Source: Arhodomonas aquaeolei DSM 8974
GTDB lineage: Bacteria; Pseudomonadota; Gammaproteobacteria; Nitrococcales; Nitrococcaceae
DNA length: 64,000 nucleotides
NCBI RefSeq assembly: GCF_000374645.1
Contig: NZ_KB894804.1
Coordinates: 124,001 to 188,000 of the forward strand
Direction of reading: 5' to 3'
Numbering within the stretch: the stretch's first letter is position 1; each line of letters begins with the position of its first letter. Below the pieces are notes generated by a model. That model was not told the origin of the DNA and did not search any database. It saw only the letters and a list, made by a program, of their open reading frames with translations. Below are positions 3,573-15,947 of this stretch, piece by piece. The translations under genes were made by a program, and so were the position numbers.

Positions 3573-4445
3573 TCAGGCGATGGCGATCGGGCGCAGCATG
3601 GAGCCGGTCGCGCCCTCGATGCGGGGTGGCAGGGCGATGAACAGGAACTCGTATACCCCGGCGGCGGCGAGCTCCTCGAGGTAGACGTTCTCCATGATGT
3701 AGATGCCGGCCTCGATCAGCAGCCGCTGGTGCACCGGGTGGGGATTGCCGGGCTCAATGGAGGGCACGACCTCGCAGGACTCGGTGTCCACGCCCACCGC
3801 GGTCACGCCGAGGTCGGCGGCCATGTCCGCGATGGCACGGGTTATACCCGATCCCTGGGTCTCCGCCATGCGCTGCTGATCCGGCCACACCGACATCTGT
3901 CCCGTGCGGACGAGGACGACGTCCCCCCGTTCGGGCGGGGCGGTGTCCTGCCGCGCCATGGCACCCTCGAACTCGTCCAGCGAGACCGGGTGCGACCGGC
4001 CGAGACGGTCGACGCCCAGGTAACCGGCGACGTCGGCGAGCACCGCGCGGGTGACGATGGGCGGCAGGGTGGAGGCGTCGTGGTCGGTCGGCCCGAAGTC
4101 CCCGAGCGCGTCGGCGGCGCTGGAGCCGCCGTGCCAGTGGTCATCCGCGCCGCAGGTGATATGGGCGAGGGCGTCGATGTGGGCGCCGGAGTGACAGGTC
4201 GCCACCAGCATTTCCGAGACGATGCCGATGTTCTCGCGGTTGACCTCCGGCGCGAGCCAGTCCTGGTCCTGGCGGATACGCAGGCCCTTCGGGGTGCGGT
4301 AGGTGACCACCTGGAACGGCGGGTGGCCCGCCCACATGGGCATGCCCGGGAAGCGTCCCGGGTCCAGGTCGAAGACCCGCCCCAGGGACGGGGCGCGGAG
4401 GTCGCCGAGCAGCTTGGCCGGCTCCGGGTGGCTGTCCGTGTTCAT
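3573..4445 (-). CDS. Cyclase-family (kynurenine-formamidase-like) metal hydrolase
   Basis: The 290-residue protein carries the PF04199 cyclase metal motif HxGxHxDxxxH, seen as CHSGAHIDALAHI near residue 84. Family members are metal-dependent amidohydrolases or lactonases, usually 200-300 residues long. It is the last gene of a minus-strand operon with apnO-, oiaK- and oiaX-like genes. This suggests it handles an intermediate or side product of the same acid-sugar pathway, for example a lactone, but no such step is established. The start ATG at 4445 has GGAG six bases upstream. Formamidase activity is possible but not supported by the context. Confidence 0.8.
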   Translation of the reverse strand: MNTDSHPEPAKLLGDLRAPSLGRVFDLDPGRFPGMPMWAGHPPFQVVTYRTPKGLRIRQDQDWLAPEVNRENIGIVSEMLVATCHSGAHIDALAHITCGADDHWHGGSSAADALGDFGPTDHDASTLPPIVTRAVLADVAGYLGVDRLGRSHPVSLDEFEGAMARQDTAPPERGDVVLVRTGQMSVWPDQQRMAETQGSGITRAIADMAADLGVTAVGVDTESCEVVPSIEPGNPHPVHQRLLIEAGIYIMENVYLEELAAAGVYEFLFIALPPRIEGATGSMLRPIAIA

Positions 4446-4538
4446 AGGGGCTCCGGGCGGTTCCGTCCCGCGGGGACGGGCGTGAAGGTGTCGCCGCCCG
4501 GGCGGTGTGCGCCGGGCGGTCCGGAACGGGGGCCGGGA

Positions 4539-5366
4539 TCAGGTGATCCGGCGGATGCTCTCGCGGATGGCCTCCGGCTCGAAGACCTGCTTCCAGTCGT
4601 CGCGGATGATCGCCGGCTTGCCGTTCTCGATGGCCTTGTTGGCGGCATCCGAGAACACCCCGTCGATCTCCTCGAAGAGCACGGCCAGCTCGATGTTGGC
4701 ATGACCGAGAACGAAGTCCCGGGCCGCCTCCCGGGAGACGCCGCGGGCGACGCACTCGTCCAGGGCCTCGCGCAGGGTGGCGAACAGCGTGGCGGCCACG
4801 GTCTCGGAGAGCCCCGGCTCCAGGATCGCCATGTGCTCGACGCTCACGCGGTGGGAGCGGTTCACCGGCGCGTAGATGGTGCGCGCGATCTCCTCGCCCA
4901 GCGCCCAGCTCTCCTCGGGGCCCTGCATGAGCGCGGAGACGATGTTCTGCTTGGCGGCGAGGCCGCCGAAGAAGTCCCGCTGCGCCTCCTCGGTGGGCTC
5001 GTAGTTGAAGATCGAGGGGTGGCAGGGGTGGGTGACGAAGTAGACGAGATCGTCGCGCTCCGGCAGGTGCCCGGCGAACGGTGCGGCGGCGTCCAGTGTC
5101 ACCACCATCGTGCCCGCGGCGAGCTTGTCGTCGATGGCGTGGGAGACCTTGCCGATCAGGGTGTCCGGTACGGCCAGGATCACGGCGTCGGTACCGGCCA
5201 GGGCCTCGTCGACGTCCATGCAGTCCACGCCGAGATCGGCCTTCAGCCGTTCGCGGGCCTGCGGGCTGTTCTCCACGTGGCGCGTCTCGAACTCGGAGCT
5301 CTTGAGGTTCCGGCTGAGCCGGTAGCCCATCTTGCCGCCGGCGCCGATGAGGGTGATTGCCGTCAT
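4539..5366 (-). CDS. apnO: NAD-dependent oxidoisomerase-like protein, probable D-apionate oxidoisomerase
   Basis: The 275-residue protein has an N-terminal Rossmann fold (TLIGAGGKMGYRL, residues 5-17) and an all-alpha C-terminal half like 6-phosphogluconate dehydrogenase or ketol-acid reductoisomerase relatives. With an adjacent DUF1537 kinase and RuBisCO-like protein, the best match I can recall is ApnO, which oxidises and isomerises D-apionate to 3-oxo-isoapionate. The longer open frame upstream is rejected because GGAGGAGTTTCCC precedes this ATG. It lies 44 bases after the kinase stop in the same operon. The specific substrate is inferred from the neighbourhood; the dehydrogenase fold is seen directly. 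Confidence 0.7.
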   Translation of the reverse strand: MTAITLIGAGGKMGYRLSRNLKSSEFETRHVENSPQARERLKADLGVDCMDVDEALAGTDAVILAVPDTLIGKVSHAIDDKLAAGTMVVTLDAAAPFAGHLPERDDLVYFVTHPCHPSIFNYEPTEEAQRDFFGGLAAKQNIVSALMQGPEESWALGEEIARTIYAPVNRSHRVSVEHMAILEPGLSETVAATLFATLREALDECVARGVSREAARDFVLGHANIELAVLFEEIDGVFSDAANKAIENGKPAIIRDDWKQVFEPEAIRESIRRIT

Positions 5367-5410
5367 GGGAAACTCCTCCAGGGATTCGTTGTGGGTCGGT
5401 GATGGATCGT

Positions 5411-6757
5411 TCAGGCGTGGCCGGCCCGAACGTGTTCGAAGTACGGTGGCTGCCCGACCTGACCGCCCTTGAGCGCGATCTGCAGGCCGTTCAGGTCCGG
5501 GTCGTCGGCGTGGACGGTGCACAGCGGTGAGCCGGGGGCGATGGGGGCGAGCGTCGTCAGTGCATACGCCCCCATTTCGTTCATGGCGTGGCCGGAGGTG
5601 TCGCCGCCGGCGACGACGGCACGGCGCACTCCGGTGCGCCGGAGCGTCTCGGTGAGCAGGCGGCCCTGGGCCCGGCCGAGCCGGTGCGAGAAGCCCTCGG
5701 GATCGTCGTTGAACAGGGCCCGGGTGCGCTCGTCCGGTGCCCCCAGCGAGGAGAAGGCGATGACGCTGCGCCCCTGATCCAGCGCGGCGCTGCAGTGCCC
5801 GATGGCCTGCTCGAGGGCGGCTTCGCCGGTCTGCGGCGACAGCAGCGCCGCCGGGTCCAGCGTGTAGCCCTCGAACCCGTTCTCCAGGGCCCACCGGATC
5901 TGCCCGGCGGTGACCGGCGAGCAGCTGCCGGAGACCACCATGACCCGGTCGCTCTGCGCCGCGGCGTCGGCCCGGGGCGCCGGCAGCGGGACCGCGCCGC
6001 TGTCCCGCCAGTGGGCGATGAGGGCGTACTCGACGCCCGAGGAGCCGACGCAGAAGCGGCTGTCCGGTCCGTCGGTGACGTCCCGCCAGAGCAGCTCGCC
6101 GGTCCGGCGCTGGGTGACGTCGTCGAGGACGTCGTAGAGCAGCACGCCGGCGTCGCCGTCGAGCAGCGCCCGGTGCCGGGCGGGGTAGTCCTCCGACCAG
6201 AGGGCGAGCACGTCCATCAGGGCGATGGATTTGTCCGTCTGCCGGGCCAGGTGCCGGCGCAGGTCGCCCTCGGTCATGGGGGTGACCGGGTGGCAGCGCA
6301 TGGTCGGGTGGCGGTCGATGCGGTAGGTCTCGCCGTCGACGGTGGCGAAGAGGTTGCCGAACGCCTGGTAGCGGCGCAGCACCGGCGCGCCCACGACCAC
6401 CGGTGTCTGGCGCGTGCCGAGGACACGGGCGCCGATGTCGACGGCACGGCCGACGCTGCCGATCTCCGGCGCGCTGTCGAAGGTCGAGCAGATCTTGTAG
6501 TGCACCAGTGGGGCACCGAGCGCGCGCAGGTCCGTGAATATCCCGGGCAGGTGCTCGTCCATCCAGGCGGGGGACTTGCCCCGGCTGATGCCGGCGATGC
6601 CGACGGCGCGGGCCTCCGGGAACCTCGCCAGCTCCGCGGCCGTCGGCCGCCGCAGGAACAGGACCGTGGGCACGCCGTTGACGCTGAGCGCCTCCATGAC
6701 ATCGGTGGAGCCGGTGAAGTCGTCGCCGTAGTAGGCGATCAGTGGTGCCTCGGTCAT
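5411..6757 (-). CDS. oiaK: DUF1537-family four-carbon-acid-type sugar kinase, probable 3-oxo-isoapionate kinase
   Basis: The 448-residue protein begins IAYYGDDFTGSTDVME, the hallmark N-terminus of DUF1537/OtnK kinases. It ends with the nucleotide-binding domain (VVAGGDTSGHAMNEMG, then LCTVHADDPDLNGLQIALKGGQVG). These cytosolic enzymes phosphorylate sugar acids with ATP. Pairing with a RuBisCO-like decarboxylase fits OiaK, which would make 3-oxo-isoapionate 4-phosphate. Its ATG overlaps the stop of the RuBisCO-like gene by 4 bases (6754-6757), implying coupled translation. Other DUF1537 members act on erythronate, threonate or related acids, so the substrate remains an inference. Confidence 0.8.
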   Translation of the reverse strand: MTEAPLIAYYGDDFTGSTDVMEALSVNGVPTVLFLRRPTAAELARFPEARAVGIAGISRGKSPAWMDEHLPGIFTDLRALGAPLVHYKICSTFDSAPEIGSVGRAVDIGARVLGTRQTPVVVGAPVLRRYQAFGNLFATVDGETYRIDRHPTMRCHPVTPMTEGDLRRHLARQTDKSIALMDVLALWSEDYPARHRALLDGDAGVLLYDVLDDVTQRRTGELLWRDVTDGPDSRFCVGSSGVEYALIAHWRDSGAVPLPAPRADAAAQSDRVMVVSGSCSPVTAGQIRWALENGFEGYTLDPAALLSPQTGEAALEQAIGHCSAALDQGRSVIAFSSLGAPDERTRALFNDDPEGFSHRLGRAQGRLLTETLRRTGVRRAVVAGGDTSGHAMNEMGAYALTTLAPIAPGSPLCTVHADDPDLNGLQIALKGGQVGQPPYFEHVRAGHA

Positions 6758-8022
6758 CGCGCGAACGTCTCCAGGGCCCGGGCCAGGGCCGGGTGTTCCC
6801 TGGCGTAGTCGGCGAGGGGAACGCCGGCGGTCGCCGCCTCCCAGCCCTCGCGGACGCTGCGCACCCCGGCGGCGACGCCGTCCGGGTGGCCGACGATGCC
6901 GCCACCGCAGCAGTAGATGAGGTCGCTGCTGCCGAGCGCCGCGTAGGTGTCCGGCGCCTGCCAGGCGGACTGGCCGGAGGAGAACACCGGCATCGCCAGG
7001 CAGGCGGGCCGGGGGGTGTCGAACAGCGGGCTCAGGCAGGTGCGGGCGGAGGCGATCACGCTGTCGTCCGGCTCGCAGAACTTGTTGCGCAATCCGTTGA
7101 CGTGCATGTGATCGGCACCGGCCAGACGCCAGAGCTTCTGCCAGGCGACGTAGCTGATGCCGACCGCCGGGGAGCGTGAGTACAGCCCCCAGCCGTTGCG
7201 GTGGGCGTGGATCGGCAGCTCGCTGTGCCGGCGCAGTGCCGTGAGGCCGCTGAGACCGACGCTGTGGAGGCTGACCATGACGCAGTTGCCGCCGAGGTCG
7301 CGGACGAGGTCGTGCCGGCGGCGCATCTCGTCGACTTCGCCGGTGAGGTTGAGCGCGTACATCACGCTGCGGCCGGTGCGCGCCTCGTGCTCGCGAATCA
7401 CCTCGATCACCGCCCGGGCGCGTGCCTCGAAGGGGCAGTGCGGACCGTCCGCCTGGAGCTCGTCGTCCTTGATGAAATCGATGCCCGCGTCCACCAGGGT
7501 GCGGGTGGCGGCCGCGGTCTCGTCGGGGGAGAGGCCGACGGACGGCTTGATGATCGTGCCGATCAGGGGCCGGTCGTGGACGTTCACGAGTCGCCGCGTG
7601 CCCTCGATGCCGAATGCGGGCCCTGCATACGCGTCGGCGAATGCGCCCGGCAGCTGCACATCGAGCAGGCGCAGGCCGGAGAACTGCTTGAGCTCGAAGA
7701 GGTTGCCGGCGATGGTCGCGAGCAGGTTGGGCAGTGACGGCCCCATGTTCGCCAGGGGCCAGGAGAGCGTCACCGTCGCGCGCCGCCAACTCGCCGGTGC
7801 GTTGCCCGCCGGCGTGGCGGCCCCGGGCAGCGAGGGGCTGTCCGCCGTTTCCAGCTCGGTGATCGCCTCGACCCTGGCGCCGCTGCGTGCCTTGATCTCG
7901 TCGGTCTCGCCGGGGACGGCCAGGAATGTCCCCGACGACTGCTCGCCGGCCATGGCGGCCGCGGCATCCTCCAGCGGGAAGGCGGTCTCGATCCAGTAGG
8001 TCGCTTGGATTCTCTCCGGCAT
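6754..8022 (-). CDS. oiaX: RuBisCO-like protein (form IV), probable 3-oxo-isoapionate-4-phosphate decarboxylase
   Basis: The 422-residue protein is clearly RuBisCO-superfamily: TIIKP with the catalytic-type Lys at residue 159, the carbamate and metal motif KDDE at 185-188, HAHRNG at 272-277, the SSGQ phosphate-loop segment near 348 and GGG at 373-375. The active-site set is retained, so it is probably an active enzyme rather than a relic. In apionate catabolism the related OiaX decarboxylates 3-oxo-isoapionate 4-phosphate to L-erythrulose 1-phosphate. It is the first gene of the operon (oiaX-oiaK-apnO-cyclase), with a 5' leader of about 130 bases. CO2 fixation is unlikely because no phosphoribulokinase or small subunit is present. 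Confidence 0.85.
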   Translation of the reverse strand: MPERIQATYWIETAFPLEDAAAAMAGEQSSGTFLAVPGETDEIKARSGARVEAITELETADSPSLPGAATPAGNAPASWRRATVTLSWPLANMGPSLPNLLATIAGNLFELKQFSGLRLLDVQLPGAFADAYAGPAFGIEGTRRLVNVHDRPLIGTIIKPSVGLSPDETAAATRTLVDAGIDFIKDDELQADGPHCPFEARARAVIEVIREHEARTGRSVMYALNLTGEVDEMRRRHDLVRDLGGNCVMVSLHSVGLSGLTALRRHSELPIHAHRNGWGLYSRSPAVGISYVAWQKLWRLAGADHMHVNGLRNKFCEPDDSVIASARTCLSPLFDTPRPACLAMPVFSSGQSAWQAPDTYAALGSSDLIYCCGGGIVGHPDGVAAGVRSVREGWEAATAGVPLADYAREHPALARALETFAR

Positions 8023-8155
8023 CCTGAAGGGCCTCTCCTCGTCGCGGGAACGGCTTTTCGTATCCCGCCTGTCGTTTTTTCGCCCGTCACCACGCCTGCG
8101 TGGCGCATGCCGGTCCAGGAGGGCCGGCTAGGCATCACGTCAGGCAATGATTAGC

Positions 8156-8167
8156 TCATCATACCAG
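8156..8167 (-). promoter_or_regulatory. Repeated motif CTGGTATGATGA upstream of oiaX
   Basis: Read on the minus strand this is CTGGTATGATGA, pointing towards oiaX. TGGTATGAT also looks like an extended -10 element. Three further copies lie before the regulator, lactonase and binding-protein genes, always facing the gene they precede. Confidence 0.55.
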
Positions 8168-8287
8168 TTCGCGTCAAGAAGCCCATGCTGACGCTATGGG
8201 GCGGAGGAAGTCGCATCGCCGGCGTGACGTGGGTGAGTCGCCGGGCCTGCTGCGGGTGTTTGCGGTTAACTTATGTAATCAGCACAC

Positions 8288-8299
8288 ATGGTATGATGA
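8288..8299 (+). promoter_or_regulatory. Repeated motif ATGGTATGATGA upstream of the FadR-type regulator
   Basis: The site lies 99 bases before the regulator start and faces it. It differs from the oiaX copy only at the first base. The 8023-8397 region otherwise contains the divergent promoters and no credible gene. Confidence 0.55.
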
Positions 8300-8397
8300 C
8301 CTGCGCGCGCAGGGACGGCGGGCCGATCTCTCCCGTAGCGGACGGGAGCCGGCCATCCTGCTTGAGACGGCGCGGTCCGGTGAACAGGAGCGAGTGG

Positions 8398-9123
8398 ATG
8401 AGCACGATCAAGACGACCCCGATTGCCCGCAGGAAGCTCTCCGACGAGGTGCTGGAGCGGCTCGTGGACCTGATCGAGAGTGGCCAGCTCAAGGCCGGCG
8501 ACCAGATGCCCTCCGAGCGCGAGCTCATGGAGACCTTCAACGTCGGCCGGCCGGCGGTGCGCGAGGCGCTCCAGAGCCTGGCCTCCATGGGCATGATCAC
8601 CATTCAGCATGGTGAACGGGCACGGGTGACCGCCGTCACCGCGCAGTCGATGATCAACCAGATCGACCGCTCGGCGCGGTATCTGCTCTCGACCTTCCCC
8701 AAGAACGTCGATCACCTCAAGGAGGCGCGGCTGTTCTTCGAGGTGGGCATGATCCGTATCGCCGCCGAGCGGGCCGGGCCCGACGACGTCGCCCGGCTGG
8801 AGGAGGCGGTCCGCGAGATGGAGCGCAACCTCGGCAAGGGCCGGACGTTCATCGAGGCGGATATGCGCTTTCACCGCATCATCGCCGAGATCCCCGGCAA
8901 TCCCATCTACGCGGCCGTCTCCCAGGCCATGCTGCAGTGGCTCTCGGAGTTCCATGTGGACATGGTCAGCTTCCCCGGTGCCGAGGACGTGACCCTGAAG
9001 GAGCACTACGAGCTCCTCGAGCGGGTCAAGGCGAACGACCCGGACGGCGCCGCCCAGGCGATGACGGACCATCTCACCCGCGCCAGCTCCCTGTACACGG
9101 CCCGCGCCCGGGGCGAGCGCTAG
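8398..9123 (+). CDS. FadR-subfamily GntR transcriptional regulator (NanR-like)
   Basis: The 241-residue protein has an N-terminal winged helix (KLSDEVLERLVDLIESGQLK, then AGDQMPSERELMETFNVGRPAVREAL broken across the recognition helix). It is followed by an all-alpha FCD ligand domain with the metal-binding type Asp/His pattern in FIEADMRFHRIIAEI. The ATG at 8398 is chosen over an upstream start because CAGGAG lies 8 bases before it and homology begins at KTTPIARRKL. It is divergent from oiaX and converges on the lactonase gene with a 4-base stop overlap. It probably represses the island and releases DNA when a pathway acid binds. Confidence 0.88.
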   Translation: MSTIKTTPIARRKLSDEVLERLVDLIESGQLKAGDQMPSERELMETFNVGRPAVREALQSLASMGMITIQHGERARVTAVTAQSMINQIDRSARYLLSTFPKNVDHLKEARLFFEVGMIRIAAERAGPDDVARLEEAVREMERNLGKGRTFIEADMRFHRIIAEIPGNPIYAAVSQAMLQWLSEFHVDMVSFPGAEDVTLKEHYELLERVKANDPDGAAQAMTDHLTRASSLYTARARGER

Positions 9124-11054
9124 ACCTCTTCCCCCGGGGCCGTGCCGATGACGCGGAGCACGCCGTAGGGCGGCAGGGTCGCCTCCGGCCCTGCCATTGC
9201 GGCGGTGCGGTCCATCCAGTCCCGGGCCTCGCGGGCGCTCGCCGCCACCGTCGCGTCCAGGCGTTGCGCCTCCTTTACGTTGAATCCCTCGATCCGCACC
9301 GGGGTGGTCTCCGGCCGGCGGTTCGCGAGCCAGAGCTCCGCGCGGCCATCGGTCCGCGTCCAGGCGACGGCGTCGACGCGCTGCGGGTCCCCGATTGCGG
9401 TGCCGAGTCCCCGCGCCCGCGGGGCGCGGGCGAGCCCCCGGAGTACGTGGAACACCGGGTACGGGCCCCGCGCGTCCATCGTCGCAAAGGGGGCGTCCAG
9501 CGACGACAGCGCCACCGCGTCGACCCCGGCGGCACGGGCACGGGCGTAGTAGCCGAGGTTCCAGGCTGCGGCGAACTGGGCGGTCTGGCGCGGGTCGTTG
9601 CGTGCCATCGGCAGCCGGAGCCGGTCCCGGTTGTCGAAGGTGTGCACGCCGTAGGGGTTGCTCCACATGCCGATCGCGCTCATGCCGACCCGGTACGGCG
9701 TCCCCGCCGGCGCCATGGCCCGGGCCGAACGGAACACGTGGGGCAGCGCCTCCAGGGTCTCCATCACCGAGAGGTCGTCCGCGGCATGGACGATCGCGGC
9801 CGTGGCGTGGCTCAGGAAGTCGATCCGTGCGCGCGGCGGGCAGCGGTTCAGCTCGGTGAAGTAGGTGAGCATGCCGCCGCCGGCGGCGGCGCGGGGAAAC
9901 ACCTCGCGCACCGCCTCGGTCACGGCGTCCGGTGTCGGTGTCTCCGGCCACCGGCCGTCGGGCTGGTAGCTCCTGAGGTAGGCCGCGGGCAGTGCCAGCA
10001 CGCCGGAGGGCACCACGCCGAGCGCCTCGAGGGTGTCCGCGAGCCACTGCAGGGCCGCCCGTGGCTCGGCGTCGTCCGGGAGGATCACGCCCAGGTCCAG
10101 TGCGGCTCCGACCCCCACGTCGTCCAGCAGCGCGGCGGCGGCGCGCAGGTGGTCCGCCGCCGAGGGACTGCGCAGGTCCACGCGCATGTGCAGGTGGTCC
10201 GGCCGGATACCGGCGAGGGTGCGCCGGGCGGTCTCCGAGACCGGTTCCCCGAGGTCGTGGCCCATACCCAGCGCGGGCAGCGCAGAGCGTGCATTGGGGT
10301 CCACGTGCACGGGAACCACAGCGCGGTCCCGGCGCGCCGCAGGGGCGTCGCCCGGGGCGGGGCCGTCGATGCGCACGCGTACGCGCTGCACCACCGTGTC
10401 GCCCGCCTCGATGCGGTAGGGCGTCGGCCATGCCAGTGGACGGTTGTAGGTCTTGAACGAGGCGTCTGTCCAGTTGCGCTGGTCCTCCATTTCGAAGACG
10501 TCGCCTTCGAAGGCGCACTCCACGGTGATCCCGGGTCGGGGCTGGTGGCGGATGGCGGCGATGTCGAAAAAGGGCTGGCCGGGGCTGATCCGGTCCGGGA
10601 AACGGCCCTCCTCGTGGCCGCCGTCCGTGTGTACGACGGTGACCGGACCGCCCGCGATGCCCTCGATGGGATGCAGGACCACGAGCCCGCTGCGGCTGGT
10701 GGTGAAGCCGCCGGGGGAGCGGAGCCTGGCGGTCACCGTGAGCTCGCGGTCGCGGATCCGGGCCTCGAACGCCGCCTCCAGCGTGCCGGCCCCGGCGGTG
10801 GTGGCCTCGAAGCGGAACACCCAGGTGCCGTCGTCGCGGTGCTCGAAGGTGTCCTCGCGCCGGAGCAGGCAGGTGCCCCACTGATCGTCGCGTATCGTCA
10901 GCCCGATACCGCGGAGGATCTCGCGCCCGCCGATGCGGATATGCCGGAGCCAGCCGTCATCGACCGTGAGCTCGAATGCGCCGGCCCGGAGGGCCGTGGG
11001 GGAAGGCGGGGTGGCATCGGTTCCGAACAGGGCCTCGGCGTCACTGGACTCCAT
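9120..11054 (-). CDS. apnL: Large lactonase-like protein, possible D-apionolactonase
   Basis: The 644-residue protein has no signal peptide. Its N-terminal part is rich in beta-strands (residues 20-220), followed by a region resembling a TIM-barrel hydrolase and a short C-terminal beta-domain. I do not recognise unambiguous catalytic residues. Size and neighbourhood match what I recall of ApnL, which opens D-apionolactone to D-apionate in clusters with ApnO, OiaK and OiaX. GGAGGAGAG lies 7 bases before the chosen ATG at 11054. A longer frame upstream lacks support. Its stop overlaps that of the convergent regulator (CTAG, 9120-9123). A glycosidase role is the main alternative. Confidence 0.55.
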   Translation of the reverse strand: MESSDAEALFGTDATPPSPTALRAGAFELTVDDGWLRHIRIGGREILRGIGLTIRDDQWGTCLLRREDTFEHRDDGTWVFRFEATTAGAGTLEAAFEARIRDRELTVTARLRSPGGFTTSRSGLVVLHPIEGIAGGPVTVVHTDGGHEEGRFPDRISPGQPFFDIAAIRHQPRPGITVECAFEGDVFEMEDQRNWTDASFKTYNRPLAWPTPYRIEAGDTVVQRVRVRIDGPAPGDAPAARRDRAVVPVHVDPNARSALPALGMGHDLGEPVSETARRTLAGIRPDHLHMRVDLRSPSAADHLRAAAALLDDVGVGAALDLGVILPDDAEPRAALQWLADTLEALGVVPSGVLALPAAYLRSYQPDGRWPETPTPDAVTEAVREVFPRAAAGGGMLTYFTELNRCPPRARIDFLSHATAAIVHAADDLSVMETLEALPHVFRSARAMAPAGTPYRVGMSAIGMWSNPYGVHTFDNRDRLRLPMARNDPRQTAQFAAAWNLGYYARARAAGVDAVALSSLDAPFATMDARGPYPVFHVLRGLARAPRARGLGTAIGDPQRVDAVAWTRTDGRAELWLANRRPETTPVRIEGFNVKEAQRLDATVAASAREARDWMDRTAAMAGPEATLPPYGVLRVIGTAPGEEV

Positions 11055-11112
11055 GGCTGCGCTCTCCTCCTGCGCCGGATGCATTGTTGTTGAATTCAGG
11101 CTAGAAATAACG

Positions 11113-11124
11113 TCATCACACCAG
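11113..11124 (-). promoter_or_regulatory. Repeated motif CTGGTGTGATGA upstream of the lactonase
   Basis: On the minus strand the site reads CTGGTGTGATGA, 59 bases before the lactonase start. A TTGAC word lies 3 bases further upstream, as also seen at 5 bases for the oiaX copy. Confidence 0.55.
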
Positions 11125-11155
11125 TCGGTCAAACGCCTGGCTGGCCGACCGAGCC

Positions 11156-11185
11156 TTGACGGCCGGGAGATTACTGGTGTAATGA
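11156..11185 (+). promoter_or_regulatory. Promoter and repeated motif before the sugar-binding protein gene
   Basis: TTGACG (11156-11161), a 16-base spacer and TGTAAT (11178-11183) form a good sigma-70 promoter. The -10 sits inside CTGGTGTAATGA (11174-11185), the fourth copy of the island's motif. The start codon is 121 bases downstream. Confidence 0.6.
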
Positions 11186-11305
11186 GTGTACGACATAATG
11201 ATCGGACCGAATGAGTCCGGCCAGATCGGCGCCCCGGTCGCGCCGTATCGAAGAGCAAAACAGGCCGCGGTCACGCGGCGACAGTCCTGAGGAGGAGAAG
11301 CCCCT

Positions 11306-12352
11306 ATGTCGACGAATCTATTCAAGGTTACGCGCCGTGCCGCGCTCTCGCTGTGCGCCGTGGCCCTCACCGTCCCCGCCTTCGCCCCGGCATCCGCCCA
11401 GGCCGCGGACAAGCCGGTCATCGCCCTGTCGAACGCCTACTACGGCAATACCTGGCGCCGGCAGATGGTCGACTCGTTCGAGGCGGTGGCGAAGAAGGCC
11501 AAGGAGCAGGGGGTGATCGAGGACTACATCATCCTCAACGGCGACGGCTCGGTGAATCAGCAGATGTCCCAGATGGGCAGCCTGATACTCAAGGGCGTCG
11601 ACGCCATCGCCATCGATGCCGCCTCCGAGTCCGCGCTCAACGGCGTTATCAAGAAGGCCTGCAGTGCCGGTGTGAAGGTGGTGGCCTTCGATTCGGTCGC
11701 CTCCGCACCGTGCGCCTACAAGCTCAACTTCAGCTTCGTGAAGTATCAGGCGGACCTCGCCGAGTACGTCGCGGACCGTCTCGACGGCGAGGGCAACGTC
11801 CTGGTCGTCCGGGGGGTGAAGGGCTCCGCGCCGGACCACGACATGTACAAGGGCCAGATGAGCGTGCTCAAGAAGTACCCGGACCTCGAGGTCGTGGGGA
11901 CGGTGTACGGTCAGGCCACGGGTTCGGTGGCCCAGTCGGCGGTGGCGAACATCCTGCCGAGCCTCCCCCACGTCGACGCGGTGCTCACCCAGGGCGGCGG
12001 CGACGATTACGGTGTCGCCAAGGCCTTCGAGCAGTATGGCGGCGAGTACGCCGACGACATGCCGATCATCGTGGGTGGCGGCAGCTCGAACTTCATCCAC
12101 TGGTGGGCCGATCGCCGCGAGAAGACCGGCTACAGCACGATCTCCAAGAACACCGCGCCGGGCATCGGCAGTGCCGCGTTCTGGCTCGCCTACGAGATCG
12201 AGCAGGGCGCCACGCCCCAGAAGACCATGCTCATGCCGGTGGCGACGGTCACCAACGACAACCTGGGCGAGTACAGGGACATGAAGCCCGGCGTCATCGT
12301 CAGTCCCGAGTACACGCACGACTGGGTCACCGAGCACCTGCTCGACAAGTGA
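11306..12352 (+). CDS. Sugar ABC transporter periplasmic binding protein
   Basis: The 348-residue protein starts with a Sec signal (TRRAALSLCAVALTVPAFA) and cleavage near ASAQAAD. It has a ribose-binding-protein-like fold: IALSNAYYGNTWRRQM, GVDAIAIDAASESAL and a C-terminal second lobe. It would capture the island's substrate in the periplasm and pass it to the fused transporter encoded next. The RBS GAGGAGGAG ends 8 bases before the ATG. Context points to apiose, apionolactone or apionate as ligand, but no binding residues can be read reliably. Confidence 0.9.
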   Translation: MSTNLFKVTRRAALSLCAVALTVPAFAPASAQAADKPVIALSNAYYGNTWRRQMVDSFEAVAKKAKEQGVIEDYIILNGDGSVNQQMSQMGSLILKGVDAIAIDAASESALNGVIKKACSAGVKVVAFDSVASAPCAYKLNFSFVKYQADLAEYVADRLDGEGNVLVVRGVKGSAPDHDMYKGQMSVLKKYPDLEVVGTVYGQATGSVAQSAVANILPSLPHVDAVLTQGGGDDYGVAKAFEQYGGEYADDMPIIVGGGSSNFIHWWADRREKTGYSTISKNTAPGIGSAAFWLAYEIEQGATPQKTMLMPVATVTNDNLGEYRDMKPGVIVSPEYTHDWVTEHLLDK

Positions 12353-12414
12353 CCGGCCCGAGCCCGGTCGCCCCGGCGGGGTGACCGGGCCGACATGCAT
12401 GTCCAGGAGCCGCT

Positions 12415-14958
12415 ATGAGCCTCAGCGAGTCCCCACGCGATCACCGCCCGGAAACGGCGACCGGGGAGACCGGTGCCGCGCACGCGGTACCGCCGCCCGG
12501 GCCTTCCGCCCCGAACGTCGTCGCCCTCGAGGGCGTCACCAAGGCCTACGGTCCGACGACGGCCAACCGCGACGTCGGCATCGTGCTCGCCGCCGGTGAT
12601 GTCCTCGGCCTCGTCGGCGCCAACGGCGCCGGCAAGAGCACGCTGATGCGCATCCTCTGTGGCGTGACCGTGCCCGATCGGGGCAGTCTTGCGATCGCCG
12701 GCGAGCCGGTGGACTTCCAGCGCTTCTCGCCGCGGCACGCCCGGGCGCAGGGGATCCGGATCGTCCACCAGGAGCTGTCCCTGTGCACCAACCTGTCGGT
12801 CACGGAGAACTTCTTCCTCGAGGACGCCCGGATCGCCGGTGGTGGCCCCCTGTGGCATGCCCATTACGGGCGGCGCGCCCGCCGGAGCATCGACCGGGTC
12901 TTTCCGGACGCCGGCATCGATGTCCACGCGCGGGTCGGCGACCTGCCCATCGGGCAGCGGCAGATGGTAGAGATCGCCCGGGCCGCGAGCGATCCCGCCC
13001 TGCGGCTGCTCATCCTCGACGAGCCCACCTCGTCGCTGGACTCCGAGCGCAGCATGCAGCTGCGGCGGTACATGGAGGCGCGCTCCGGGGACGGTGTGTC
13101 GTTCGTGTTCATCAGCCACAAGCTTGGCGAGGTCGTGGACATCGCCTCGCGGATCGCCGTGATGCGCAACGGCGAGAAGGTCTGGGAGGGCGATTCGGCG
13201 GAGACCTCGGTGAGTCAGCTCGTCGACTGGATGGGCGGTGACGCGGGCCGGGAGCTGGAGAGCCATCACGCCGATGCCGGGGCCCGCGGCCGGGAGCGCG
13301 CCGCGGCGGCGCGCGAGCCGCTGGTGCGCATCGGTGGCGATCATCTCCGCGGTGCCGGCGAGCAGGCCCTGGTGCTTCACGCCGGCGAGATCGTCGGCTT
13401 CGCCGGACTGGAGGGCAGCGGCCAGCGCGAGATGCTCCACGAGGTCTTCCGTCAGGCACGCAGGGGCAACGTGCAGTGCCTCGGGTCCGTGGGCTTCGTC
13501 TCCGGGGACCGCCGCCGGGAGGGGGTCTTCCCCCTGTGGAGCGTGGAGGAGAACATCGCCGTGGGACAGACCGGCAAGCGCGGCCCGCTGGCGCCGCTCG
13601 CCGGGCGCGGCGAGCTCGGGCGCATCGACCGGTGGCTGGAGAAGCTGCGCCTGGACCGCGAGCGCCTGCCCTCGCCGATCCTGGAGCTCAGCGGCGGCAA
13701 CCAGCAGAAGGCGCTGGTGGCACGGGCGCTGTTCGCCGATGCGGACGTGATCCTGCTCGATGATCCCACCCGCGGCGTGGACGTCTCGGTCAAGCGCGAT
13801 TTCTACGACGTGGTCCGCGAGCTGGCCGAGGCCGGCAAGCTCATCATCTGGTACAGCAGCGAGGATATCGAGTTCCTGGAGTGCGACCGGGTCCTGGTCT
13901 TCAGCGAGGCCGCGATCGCGTGCGAGCTCCGCGGCGAGGACATCAGCGAGGAGGCGATCGTGAGCTCCGCGTTCAGCGAGATCGTGGAGGAGGCCACGCC
14001 TGCCGCCGCCGGTGCGGGCCGGGCGCGCCAGGGGCAATGGCGGCAGTGGCTGTTCCGGGTCGCGCCGTTCCTGAGCACGATGGTGATCTTCGCCATCATC
14101 GGCTCGATGAACCCGATGGCGGTCAGCGCGTTCGGCCTCGACCTGCTGCTGGGGCCGGCGGTGCCGCTGGTGCTGGTGGCCGCCGCGCAGATGTTCGTGG
14201 TCGGGGGCAGTCATATCGACCTGGGCGTCGGGGCCTTCGCCGGGCTGGTCAACGTGGTCAGCGCCACGGTGCTGGTCGCCCATCCCGGCCCGGGGGCGCT
14301 GGCCCTGCTCGCGCTGGTTGCGGGCTACGGGAGTCTGGGCGCCCTGATCGAGGGGCGCAAGCTGCCCGCCATCGTTGTGACCCTGGGTGCCTCGTTCATC
14401 TGGCTCGGGATCGGCTATACGCTGCAGGAAAGCCCGGGCGGGAGCAGCCCGGCGTGGCTCAGCGCGCTGTTCTCGTGGTCGCTCGCCGGTGTCCCCGCCT
14501 CGGTGGTCATGATCGCCGGCGCGGGGGCGCTCGCCTGGGCGGTCAACCGCTCGCGGCTGGGCGTGGTCCTGCGGGGCTTCGGCAACAACGCCCAGGCCCT
14601 CAGCCACATGGGCTGGTCGGCGTTCACCTACACCGTCGCGCGCTACGTCGTCGCCGGCGTGTTCGGCCTGTTCGCCGGGCTCTCCCTCACGGCGGTGAAC
14701 ACGGCCTCGGATATCAACGCCAGCGGCTCGTTCACGCTGCTCAGCGTCGCCGCGGTGGTAATCGGCGGTTGCCGGCTGGTCGGCGGCTCGGTCACCCCGG
14801 TGGGGGTGGTCTTCGGCGCGCTCACGCTCTCGCTGATCGGGGCGCTGCTGGGCTTCATCGGGATCAGTACGGATTACAACGCCTCGGTCCAGGGGGCGCT
14901 GCTGATCGGCATTCTGGCGTTGCGGACGCTGGTCGGGCAGAAGGAGACGGCGGAATGA
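12415..14958 (+). CDS. Sugar ABC transporter: tandem ATPase fused to an RbsC-type permease
   Basis: The 847-residue protein joins three modules. The first ATPase has Walker A GANGAGKST (68-76), signature LPIGQRQ and Walker B LLILDEP. The second has a degenerate Walker A (GLEGSGQRE), as is usual in RbsA proteins, plus LSGGNQQK (about 425) and VILLDDPTRGVD. From about residue 547 a polytopic RbsC-type permease follows (FRVAPFLSTMVIFAIIGS onward). Usually these are separate RbsA and RbsC polypeptides. No stop or frameshift is needed to read through, so the fusion looks real. The gene overlaps the next permease by ATGA. The transporter would therefore be a heterodimer of a fused and an unfused permease. 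Confidence 0.9.
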   Translation: MSLSESPRDHRPETATGETGAAHAVPPPGPSAPNVVALEGVTKAYGPTTANRDVGIVLAAGDVLGLVGANGAGKSTLMRILCGVTVPDRGSLAIAGEPVDFQRFSPRHARAQGIRIVHQELSLCTNLSVTENFFLEDARIAGGGPLWHAHYGRRARRSIDRVFPDAGIDVHARVGDLPIGQRQMVEIARAASDPALRLLILDEPTSSLDSERSMQLRRYMEARSGDGVSFVFISHKLGEVVDIASRIAVMRNGEKVWEGDSAETSVSQLVDWMGGDAGRELESHHADAGARGRERAAAAREPLVRIGGDHLRGAGEQALVLHAGEIVGFAGLEGSGQREMLHEVFRQARRGNVQCLGSVGFVSGDRRREGVFPLWSVEENIAVGQTGKRGPLAPLAGRGELGRIDRWLEKLRLDRERLPSPILELSGGNQQKALVARALFADADVILLDDPTRGVDVSVKRDFYDVVRELAEAGKLIIWYSSEDIEFLECDRVLVFSEAAIACELRGEDISEEAIVSSAFSEIVEEATPAAAGAGRARQGQWRQWLFRVAPFLSTMVIFAIIGSMNPMAVSAFGLDLLLGPAVPLVLVAAAQMFVVGGSHIDLGVGAFAGLVNVVSATVLVAHPGPGALALLALVAGYGSLGALIEGRKLPAIVVTLGASFIWLGIGYTLQESPGGSSPAWLSALFSWSLAGVPASVVMIAGAGALAWAVNRSRLGVVLRGFGNNAQALSHMGWSAFTYTVARYVVAGVFGLFAGLSLTAVNTASDINASGSFTLLSVAAVVIGGCRLVGGSVTPVGVVFGALTLSLIGALLGFIGISTDYNASVQGALLIGILALRTLVGQKETAE

Positions 14959-15947
14959 GCGTGTTTTTCAGCTGGGCGGCCGGCAATCGCTGGATCTGGT
15001 CGGCGATCGGCGTGGTGGTGCTGTGGGGGATCCTCAGCGTGTTCGCCGAGAGCTTCAGCCTCCAGAGCCTCAGCGGCGTGCTGACCTCGACGGCATTCCT
15101 GACCATGGTGGCCATCGGCCAGATGTTCGTGGTCTCCACCGGCCGGGGGAATATCGATCTGTCCATCCCCAGCGTGGTCACCTTCAGCGCCTTCGTCGGC
15201 ATGAGCATCATCCAGGGCTCGGTGGCGATGGTGCCCGCCGGGCTGCTGGCGGTGGTCGTCATCGGTGCCGTGGTCGGCTCGGTCAATGCCTTCCTGGTCC
15301 TGCGCCTCGGCATCCCCGCCATCATCGCGACGCTGGCCACCGGCTACATCATGGCGACGGCGGTCCTGCTCGCCAACCAGCACTTCTCGACGTTCGCGGT
15401 GGATCCGGTGCTGAAGACACTCACCACCGGCAAGCTGCTCGGCTTTCCGGTGATCACGCTGGTGAGCCTGGTGATCGTGGCCTTTGCCGCCTGGGTGCTG
15501 CGCACACGGGCGTACGGGCGCAGCCTGATGGCGGTGGGGCAGAACCTCCGCGCGGCGGGGCTCGCCGGCGTCCGGACCGATCGCACCATCTTCCTGGCGT
15601 TCTTCACCAGCAGTGTGCTCGCGGCGGTGACCGGCGTGCTGCTCTCGGCCTACGTCGGCGGCGCCTTCCTGGAGATGGGCAAGCCCTATCTGCTCCAGTC
15701 GGTGGGCGCGGTCGTGGTCGGCGGGACGCTCATCTACGGCGGCAGCTCGACGGCGCTGGGTACGTTCTTCGGGGCACTGCTGCTGGTGCTCATCGTCACG
15801 ACCATGCAGATCGCCGGCCTGCCCGCCGGCATGCAGGACATCGTCCAGGGGGCGGTGATCATCGGCGTGCTGGCACTGGCCGGGGACCTCAAGGCCGCCG
15901 GGCGTCCCCGCCGCCGGACCACCGGCAAGGAGGCGGCCGGCGGCTGA
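14955..15947 (+). CDS. Sugar ABC transporter permease (RbsC type)
   Basis: The 330-residue protein is highly hydrophobic with eight or more predicted membrane segments. It shows the family motifs GRGNIDLSIPSVVTFSAFVG and an EAA-like loop region around AVGQNLRAAGLAGVRTDR. It would form the second half of the membrane channel beside the permease fused to the ATPase. The ATG overlaps the preceding stop (14955-14958), so the two are probably translated together in near-equal amounts. The arginine-rich C-terminus (GRPRRRTTGKE) should lie in the cytoplasm by the positive-inside rule. Confidence 0.9.
   Translation: MSVFFSWAAGNRWIWSAIGVVVLWGILSVFAESFSLQSLSGVLTSTAFLTMVAIGQMFVVSTGRGNIDLSIPSVVTFSAFVGMSIIQGSVAMVPAGLLAVVVIGAVVGSVNAFLVLRLGIPAIIATLATGYIMATAVLLANQHFSTFAVDPVLKTLTTGKLLGFPVITLVSLVIVAFAAWVLRTRAYGRSLMAVGQNLRAAGLAGVRTDRTIFLAFFTSSVLAAVTGVLLSAYVGGAFLEMGKPYLLQSVGAVVVGGTLIYGGSSTALGTFFGALLLVLIVTTMQIAGLPAGMQDIVQGAVIIGVLALAGDLKAAGRPRRRTTGKEAAGG

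Follow-up and report, generated by a model that had tools for sequence, protein, structure and literature searches.

A predicted D-apionate catabolic and transport island in Arhodomonas aquaeolei with a RuBisCO-like protein most likely of the OiaT type

Gene content and setting of the island

The window analyzed (64,000 nucleotides, bases 124001-188000 of contig 5) is part of the 3.96 Mb genome of Arhodomonas aquaeolei DSM 8974, which is assembled in 48 contigs with an estimated completeness of 100. All of the island genes named here are intact, full-length open reading frames. Four of them form an operon on the minus strand. The gene for a RuBisCO-like protein (RLP; 8022-6754, 422 aa, PF00016 245 bits) overlaps by four bases the gene for a DUF1537 kinase (6757-5411), and these are followed by genes for an oxidoisomerase-like protein (5366-4539) and a cyclase-family protein (4445-3573). 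A regulator gene (8398-9123, plus strand) is divergent from this operon. A second divergent promoter region lies between a lactonase-like gene (11054-9120, minus strand) and genes for a sugar-type ABC importer (11306-15947, plus strand). We chose the start codons of the regulator, oxidoisomerase-like and lactonase-like genes, with translations among the basis for the choice.

A preliminary description of this DNA listed an RLP, a DUF1537 kinase, a Rossmann protein, a FadR-type regulator and a sugar ABC system, all of which were found in place. The "lactonase-like protein" that it also listed is present, but two proteins fit the term: the ApnL-like protein encoded at 9120-11054 (minus strand) and the cyclase-family protein encoded at 3573-4445 (minus strand).

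As read from translations, the left flank encodes a TonB-type receptor and a 226-aa protein and the right flank an aminotransferase-like protein; the flanking genes on both sides do not look related to the island. No GC contrast indicative of recent arrival was detected (2-kb windows have 67-74% GC inside the island and 68-73% on either side). Scans for promoters (1 site, 0.6 expected) and terminators (5, with 2.4 expected, sd 2.0) were uninformative.

Just outside the window, on its right-hand side, there is a second RLP gene (L003:8439-9548, minus strand; contig 5, 188439-189548; 369 aa). Its best model is the MtnW-type enolase (196 bits, cut-off 409) and its motif is KDDH. It adjoins transporter-like and GGDEF-like genes, and a phosphoribulokinase-type kinase (269 bits, cut-off 236) is encoded about 2 kb further on. 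The two RLPs are the only PF00016 matches in the genome.

Related loci, the regulator and operator-like sites

A contig scan with an alignment of seven RLPs, from which the 80 best of at least 539 confirmed relatives were taken, together with nine plasmid loci, yielded 89 related loci. They come from Pseudomonadota, Acidobacteriota, Bacteroidota, Verrucomicrobiota, Chloroflexota and haloarchaea. Flanks of the genome loci extend to at most 10 kb and many contigs are shorter, so the absence of a gene from this set carries little weight. Within the set (the best 80 plus the nine), homologues of OiaK are present in 84 loci, of ApnO in 57, of ApnL in 22 and of the full-length fused importer in three.

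The regulator (8398-9123, plus strand; GntR and FCD, PF00392 and PF07729) scores 321 bits against PRK03837, above the cut-off of 260, and thus belongs to the NanR type. An inverted pair of the motif TGGTRTRATGA occurs in each of the two divergent promoter regions. Between the RLP and regulator genes, the operator-like sites are TGGTATGATGA at 8156-8166 (minus strand) and again TGGTATGATGA at 8289-8299 (plus strand). Between the ApnL-like and binding-protein genes, they are TGGTGTGATGA at 11113-11123 (minus strand) and TGGTGTAATGA at 11175-11185 (plus strand).

The motif was defined from these four sites, and the 89 related loci serve as a separate test. Exact matches in the 3.96 Mb genome number four, all in the island, and the reversed motif has none. 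When one mismatch was allowed, a search of the window returned only the same four sites (0.92 expected; 3 of 100 shuffles reached four). In the related loci we identified 48 sites in 32 loci, where 1.2 are expected from base composition, and 39 of the 48 precede, by no more than 450 bp, a gene homologous to one of the island. The reversed motif has one site there, which is not in such a position. The motif is present in 29 of the 43 loci that have a NanR homologue versus 3 of the 46 that do not, in a set of loci related by descent. Because the motif is confined to the promoters of the island and precedes homologous genes in other loci, the island looks like a single regulon, with TGGTRTRATGA as a putative operator bound by the NanR-type regulator.

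The motif also occurs in two Halomonadaceae loci (L067:19177-19187 and L074:17737-17747), about 8-9 kb from the RLP gene. The site in the former adjoins a recurrent gene that resembles a TRAP binding protein, and a TRAP-type system may be the apionate importer there.

Lactonase, oxidoisomerase, kinase and cyclase-family proteins

The predicted D-apionate oxidoisomerase (ApnO-like; 4539-5366, minus strand) has a PGDH_C domain (PF16896, 230 bits) and weak Rossmann matches, and it matches PDB 5t57 with 370 bits. This domain combination, in a gene that adjoins ApnL, OiaK and RLP genes, is the architecture of ApnO. The protein is at most 71% identical to its homologues in related loci, and retains 54 of 55 columns that are near-invariant among 57 of them.

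The predicted 3-oxo-isoapionate kinase (OiaK-like; 5411-6757, minus strand; PF07005 and PF17042) scores 530 bits against the OiaK model NF042436, below the cut-off of 700. Only one of six comparison kinases passes this cut-off; the other five, all beside such RLPs, score 428-575 bits. As these five also fall below the cut-off, we retain the OiaK-like assignment. One of the five, a Rhizobium leguminosarum kinase encoded beside an annotated OiaX, scores 479 bits. The window kinase retains 70 of 71 near-invariant columns (84 homologues in related loci). The predicted D-apionolactonase (ApnL-like; 9120-11054, minus strand) scores 495 bits against NF049900, for which the cut-off is 750 and which three of four comparison ApnL proteins pass. 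Judging from these other members, the OiaK equivalog cut-off appears narrow and that for ApnL does not. Despite the low score, we keep the suggestion that the protein works like ApnL, with 56 of 59 near-invariant columns retained (22 homologues in related loci). Together, the family matches and the retained columns support the ApnL-, ApnO- and OiaK-like assignments proposed earlier.

The last gene of the operon (3573-4445, minus strand) encodes the cyclase-family protein (PF04199, 63.6 bits). It contains HSGAHID, which we take to be a metal-site-like motif. No homologue was detected at E 1e-15 in any of the 89 related loci, as far as their flanks reach (at most 10 kb for genome loci, with many contigs short). 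Relatives occur in 59 plasmid records, and none of the four settings examined (relatives of 47-51% identity in three, 37% in one) is an apionate cluster. Among solved structures, the protein matches 5ibz, which is uncharacterized, with 54 bits, and kynurenine formamidases with 23 bits. The predicted enzyme has no place in the known apionate pathway, and may be an additional hydrolase that acts on a lactone or an ester.

Import and pathway entry

The importer genes encode a periplasmic sugar-type binding protein (11306-12352, plus strand; PF13407, 176 bits), a fused ABC ATPase-permease (12415-14958, plus strand; PF00005 in two stretches and PF02653) and an ABC permease (14955-15947, plus strand; PF02653, 106 bits). 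This confirms the sugar ABC system noted previously, with the second gene encoding a single 847-aa fusion. The ATPase-permease fusion is also found in Paraburkholderia sprentiae, S. meliloti and Microvirga, and in another setting on an Agrobacterium plasmid.

What enters the cell has to be judged from the transporter and from the enzymes that are encoded. Full-length homologues of the fused importer (54-57% identity) were identified in three of the 89 related loci, and a homologue of apiose dehydrogenase (ApsD) is nearby in all three; for this reason the importer might carry apiose. In that case D-apiose would be oxidized by an unrelated dehydrogenase encoded elsewhere, an arrangement that is compatible with an OiaT-type RLP. 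We think it unlikely, however, given what the genome lacks. The preliminary description reported no apiose dehydrogenase in the window, and this holds genome-wide: the best match to ApsD has 26% identity (32 bits) and is not convincing. There is also no further exact motif site elsewhere in the genome, and the binding protein is unlike the DUF2291-linked type. It scores only 29.6 bits against PDB 5ibq, presumably the D-apiose complex of a binding protein, as compared to 458 bits for the DUF2291-linked P. sprentiae protein. Given that no apiose dehydrogenase was found, that the binding protein differs from the 5ibq type and that an ApnL-like gene is retained, the imported compound is most likely the lactone or the acid, an entry point already suggested in the preliminary description and plausible in light of these results.

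The RuBisCO-like protein

Carter et al. are said to have set out, in 2018, the steps of the oxidative D-apiose pathway and its enzyme names, including OiaX and OiaT. In their account OiaX is reportedly followed by two isomerases, LerI (TIM-like) and DerI (RpiB-like). OiaT has reportedly been characterized from Xanthobacter autotrophicus, with 3-phosphoglycerate and glycolate as products. The RLP was initially described as OiaX, with L-erythrulose 1-phosphate as its product. The best NCBIfam model is indeed OiaX (NF042437), but the score of 473 bits is 227 below the cut-off of 700. All nine window-type RLPs scored against this model fall at 407-518 bits, so the shortfall is shared by the whole set and is not peculiar to the window sequence. 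The RLP (6754-8022, minus strand) retains 117 of 118 near-invariant columns (88 homologues in related loci).

In a tree made by a quick method from 58 rows (36 of 90 window-type rows, with the outgroup rows L013 and L026 excluded), the 13 OiaX rows form a single clade with support of 100. The window RLP is outside this clade, in a distinct set comprising 31 rows (support 94; 95 for 30 of those rows). Five other RLPs with below-cut-off scores (L110, L123, L136, L137 and L138) are on the OiaX side with support of 86, closer to it than the window RLP, and their assignment to one branch or the other is uncertain. L136 and L137, two of the five, make up a third group of RLPs, which share 48-51% identity with the window RLP and occur with VOC, TRAP and DUF1537 genes. 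In these, H replaces N309, and PDB 3nwr aligns with the same H.

Three positions separate the window-type rows compared from the OiaX rows. Residues 27, 107 and 307 (window numbering) are E, N and H in every one of the 14 window-type rows, and D, G and Q in every one of the 13 OiaX rows. Position 305, which is H in the window RLP and Q in OiaX, was not adopted as a further mark, as Q also occurs in two of the 14 window-type rows. The three positions align with Glu60, Asn123 and His327 in the list of 14 Arabidopsis RuBisCO active-site residues given in an excerpt of PMC5786004. Of the residues in that list, the window RLP retains 11 (E27, T32, N107, K159, K185, D187, E188, H274, R275, H307 and K314) and differs at Lys177 (S161) and Leu335 (F315), Tyr20 being outside the comparison. 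These include K159 and residues of the KDDE motif (185-188) noted in the preliminary description, all of which are present. E, N and H also occur in the RuBisCO-family rows L013 and L026, which from their sequences appear to be form I RuBisCO; L008, L011 and L012 lack this combination. The protein thus appears to retain the RuBisCO residues for enolization, carboxylation and cleavage, which OiaT may also need.

Two apionate RLP branches have been described, and RLPs of Ancylobacter (Xanthobacteraceae), which are 69-70% identical to the window RLP, fall in the same tree set. On these grounds, the RLP is most likely an OiaT-type transcarboxylase/hydrolase, the tie to Xanthobacter being at the level of the bacterial family only.

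Downstream isomerases and glycolate oxidation

The genome content bears on the same question. An isomerase was noted earlier as missing from the window; we find that no isomerases for L-erythrulose 1-phosphate (an RpiB type plus a second TIM) are present elsewhere in the genome either. No RpiB-type isomerase was detected in the whole-genome search, and the only TIM gene is located between glmM and secG and is glycolytic. The absence is better explained by the OiaT branch, which needs no such isomerase.

We surveyed 247 genomes of the family of Pseudorhizobium tarimense (L088), 70 of which have an RLP match at E 1e-90. The scores against the OiaX model are two-humped: 43 genomes have a match at 731-797 bits (six of these also carry a lower-scoring RLP) and 27 have only matches at 374-473 bits, with nothing in between. 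RpiB and at least two TIMs are encoded in 42 of the 43 genomes with OiaX, as opposed to 3 of the 27 with only below-cut-off RLPs. The RLPs of these 27 span two score ranges, 374-403 bits and 418-473 bits, which are pooled here and lie outside the tree. Fisher's test gives 2e-14, which is no strict probability as the genomes are related. In 50 genomes with window-like RLPs from across the phyla (50 of the 80 loci were used, and L110 and L123 are among them), RpiB was found in 27, a second TIM in six and both in five.

These lines of evidence agree that the RLP is probably not OiaX. The alternative, a decarboxylase whose product would be handled by isomerases unrelated to LerI and DerI or encoded in an unassembled part of the genome, draws on the best-matching model, on the metal-site residues K185, D187 and E188 and on K159 and K314, all shared with OiaX, and on an assembly of 48 contigs. 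It is set against the position of the RLP outside the OiaX clade and under the cut-off, the three differing residues, the lack of RpiB and of a second TIM at a completeness of 100, and the absence of the isomerase pair from 45 of the 50 genomes with window-like RLPs. We consider it highly improbable.

Genes for GlcD, GlcE and GlcF are side by side elsewhere in the genome. GlcE (477 bits, cut-off 284) and GlcF (623, cut-off 333) are above their cut-offs and GlcD (816, cut-off 897) is below. The glc operon is common in bacteria. Its presence is in weak agreement with an OiaT-type RLP, the genes being common ones that are not tied to the island.

Comparison with known and related systems

The island has in common with the OiaT branch its ApnL-, ApnO-, OiaK- and RLP-type enzymes and a sugar ABC importer. 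Unlike that branch, it has a binding protein that is not of the 5ibq type, a diverged ApnL and an extra cyclase gene, and no ApsD was found in the genome. The OiaX branch of Rhizobium and Agrobacterium shares the kinase, oxidoisomerase and lactonase families (e.g., in L132), but its RLPs are only about 44-47% identical to the window RLP and differ from it in clade and active-site residues; RpiB and the second TIM are absent from the genome of the window. Strain LCG007, which grows on D-apiose, has a cluster annotated as ApnL, ApsD, ApnO, OiaK and OiaX (excerpt of PMC11747546). The oxidative D-apiose work of Carter et al. 2018 is cited in an excerpt of PMC6302742.

A Paraburkholderia sprentiae plasmid locus (L043) encodes a window-type RLP (62% identity), ApnO, NanR, an OiaK that is above its cut-off (822 bits) and an importer of the same kind (binding protein, fused ABC protein and permease). 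Additional genes there are those for ApsD and a DUF2291-linked importer, together with an SMP-30 gene, and the cyclase is absent. Four loci of Ancylobacter and Microvirga (L050, L051, L052 and L056) encode RLPs of 68-70% identity with ApnO, OiaK and NanR, and lack the cyclase. ApnL is present in L050, L052 and L056, ApsD is nearby in L051 and L056, and the fused-type ABC gene is complete in L051 and truncated where the locus stops in L050 and L052.

In two Rhizobium and Agrobacterium plasmid stretches (L131 and L133), an annotated OiaX occurs with aldo/keto reductases, an SDR, a DUF1537 kinase and 3-keto-5-aminohexanoate cleavage genes, with no gene annotated like ApnO or ApnL. These RLPs are perhaps for another substrate.

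Proposed pathway

The family matches support the earlier description of an apionate-type catabolic and transport unit, and catabolism of apionate by the predicted enzymes is well supported. We think it likely that the island is one regulon for D-apionate, a branched sugar acid from plants, or for its lactone, with the RLP acting as OiaT. In this pathway, which is predicted from sequence in its ligand, its reactions, the regulator's binding to the motif and the role of the cyclase, the fused-type ABC importer would take up D-apionate or its lactone, and the ApnL-like enzyme would open the lactone, giving D-apionate, from which the ApnO-like oxidoisomerase would form 3-oxo-isoapionate. The OiaK-like kinase would then produce 3-oxo-isoapionate 4-phosphate. 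The RLP, acting as OiaT and not as the decarboxylase OiaX, would cleave this to 3-phosphoglycerate and glycolate. 3-Phosphoglycerate could enter glycolysis, and glycolate could be oxidized by GlcDEF, whose genes are outside the island. Both divergent promoter regions would be under the control of the NanR-type regulator via the TGGTRTRATGA sites.

A related branched sugar acid, for example D-hamamelonate, is a very doubtful substrate: an RLP oxygenase of the D-hamamelose pathway is reported from Ochrobactrum anthropi (cited in excerpts of PMC10176493 and PMC8914248) and linked to 3-phosphoglycerate and glycolate in the latter, and an ApnO homologue is not seen within reach in 32 of the 89 loci (flanks no longer than 10 kb, many of the loci on short contigs), so that the RLP-kinase pair may serve other uses, but ApnL- and ApnO-type genes are part of the regulon of the island and lie beside many homologous RLPs.

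More tentatively, and with somewhat less than even confidence, we suggest for the apionate island a fuller reading in which D-apionolactone or D-apionate feeds the pathway rather than apiose, the cyclase performs an unrecognized step (e.g., hydrolysis of an apionate ester or of another lactone) and the RLP typifies a large set of catabolic C-C cleavage enzymes that largely retain the RuBisCO active site. This RLP set, which occurs in bacteria and haloarchaea, would then be easily mistaken for OiaX.

Significance

The pathway itself is already known, and the island is a new example of it for which the OiaX branch first proposed is probably wrong. In the literature that we consulted (mostly non-subscription, and not searched for these items by name), we met no operator, genome-content test or residue signature for these RLPs. 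The clade, the three residues and the presence of RpiB with a second TIM are simple tests that could separate the two apionate RLP branches in genomes, and the operator-like motif could be used to find apionate regulons. A set of RLPs that largely retains the RuBisCO active site and is probably catabolic would be useful for understanding which residues CO2 chemistry needs.
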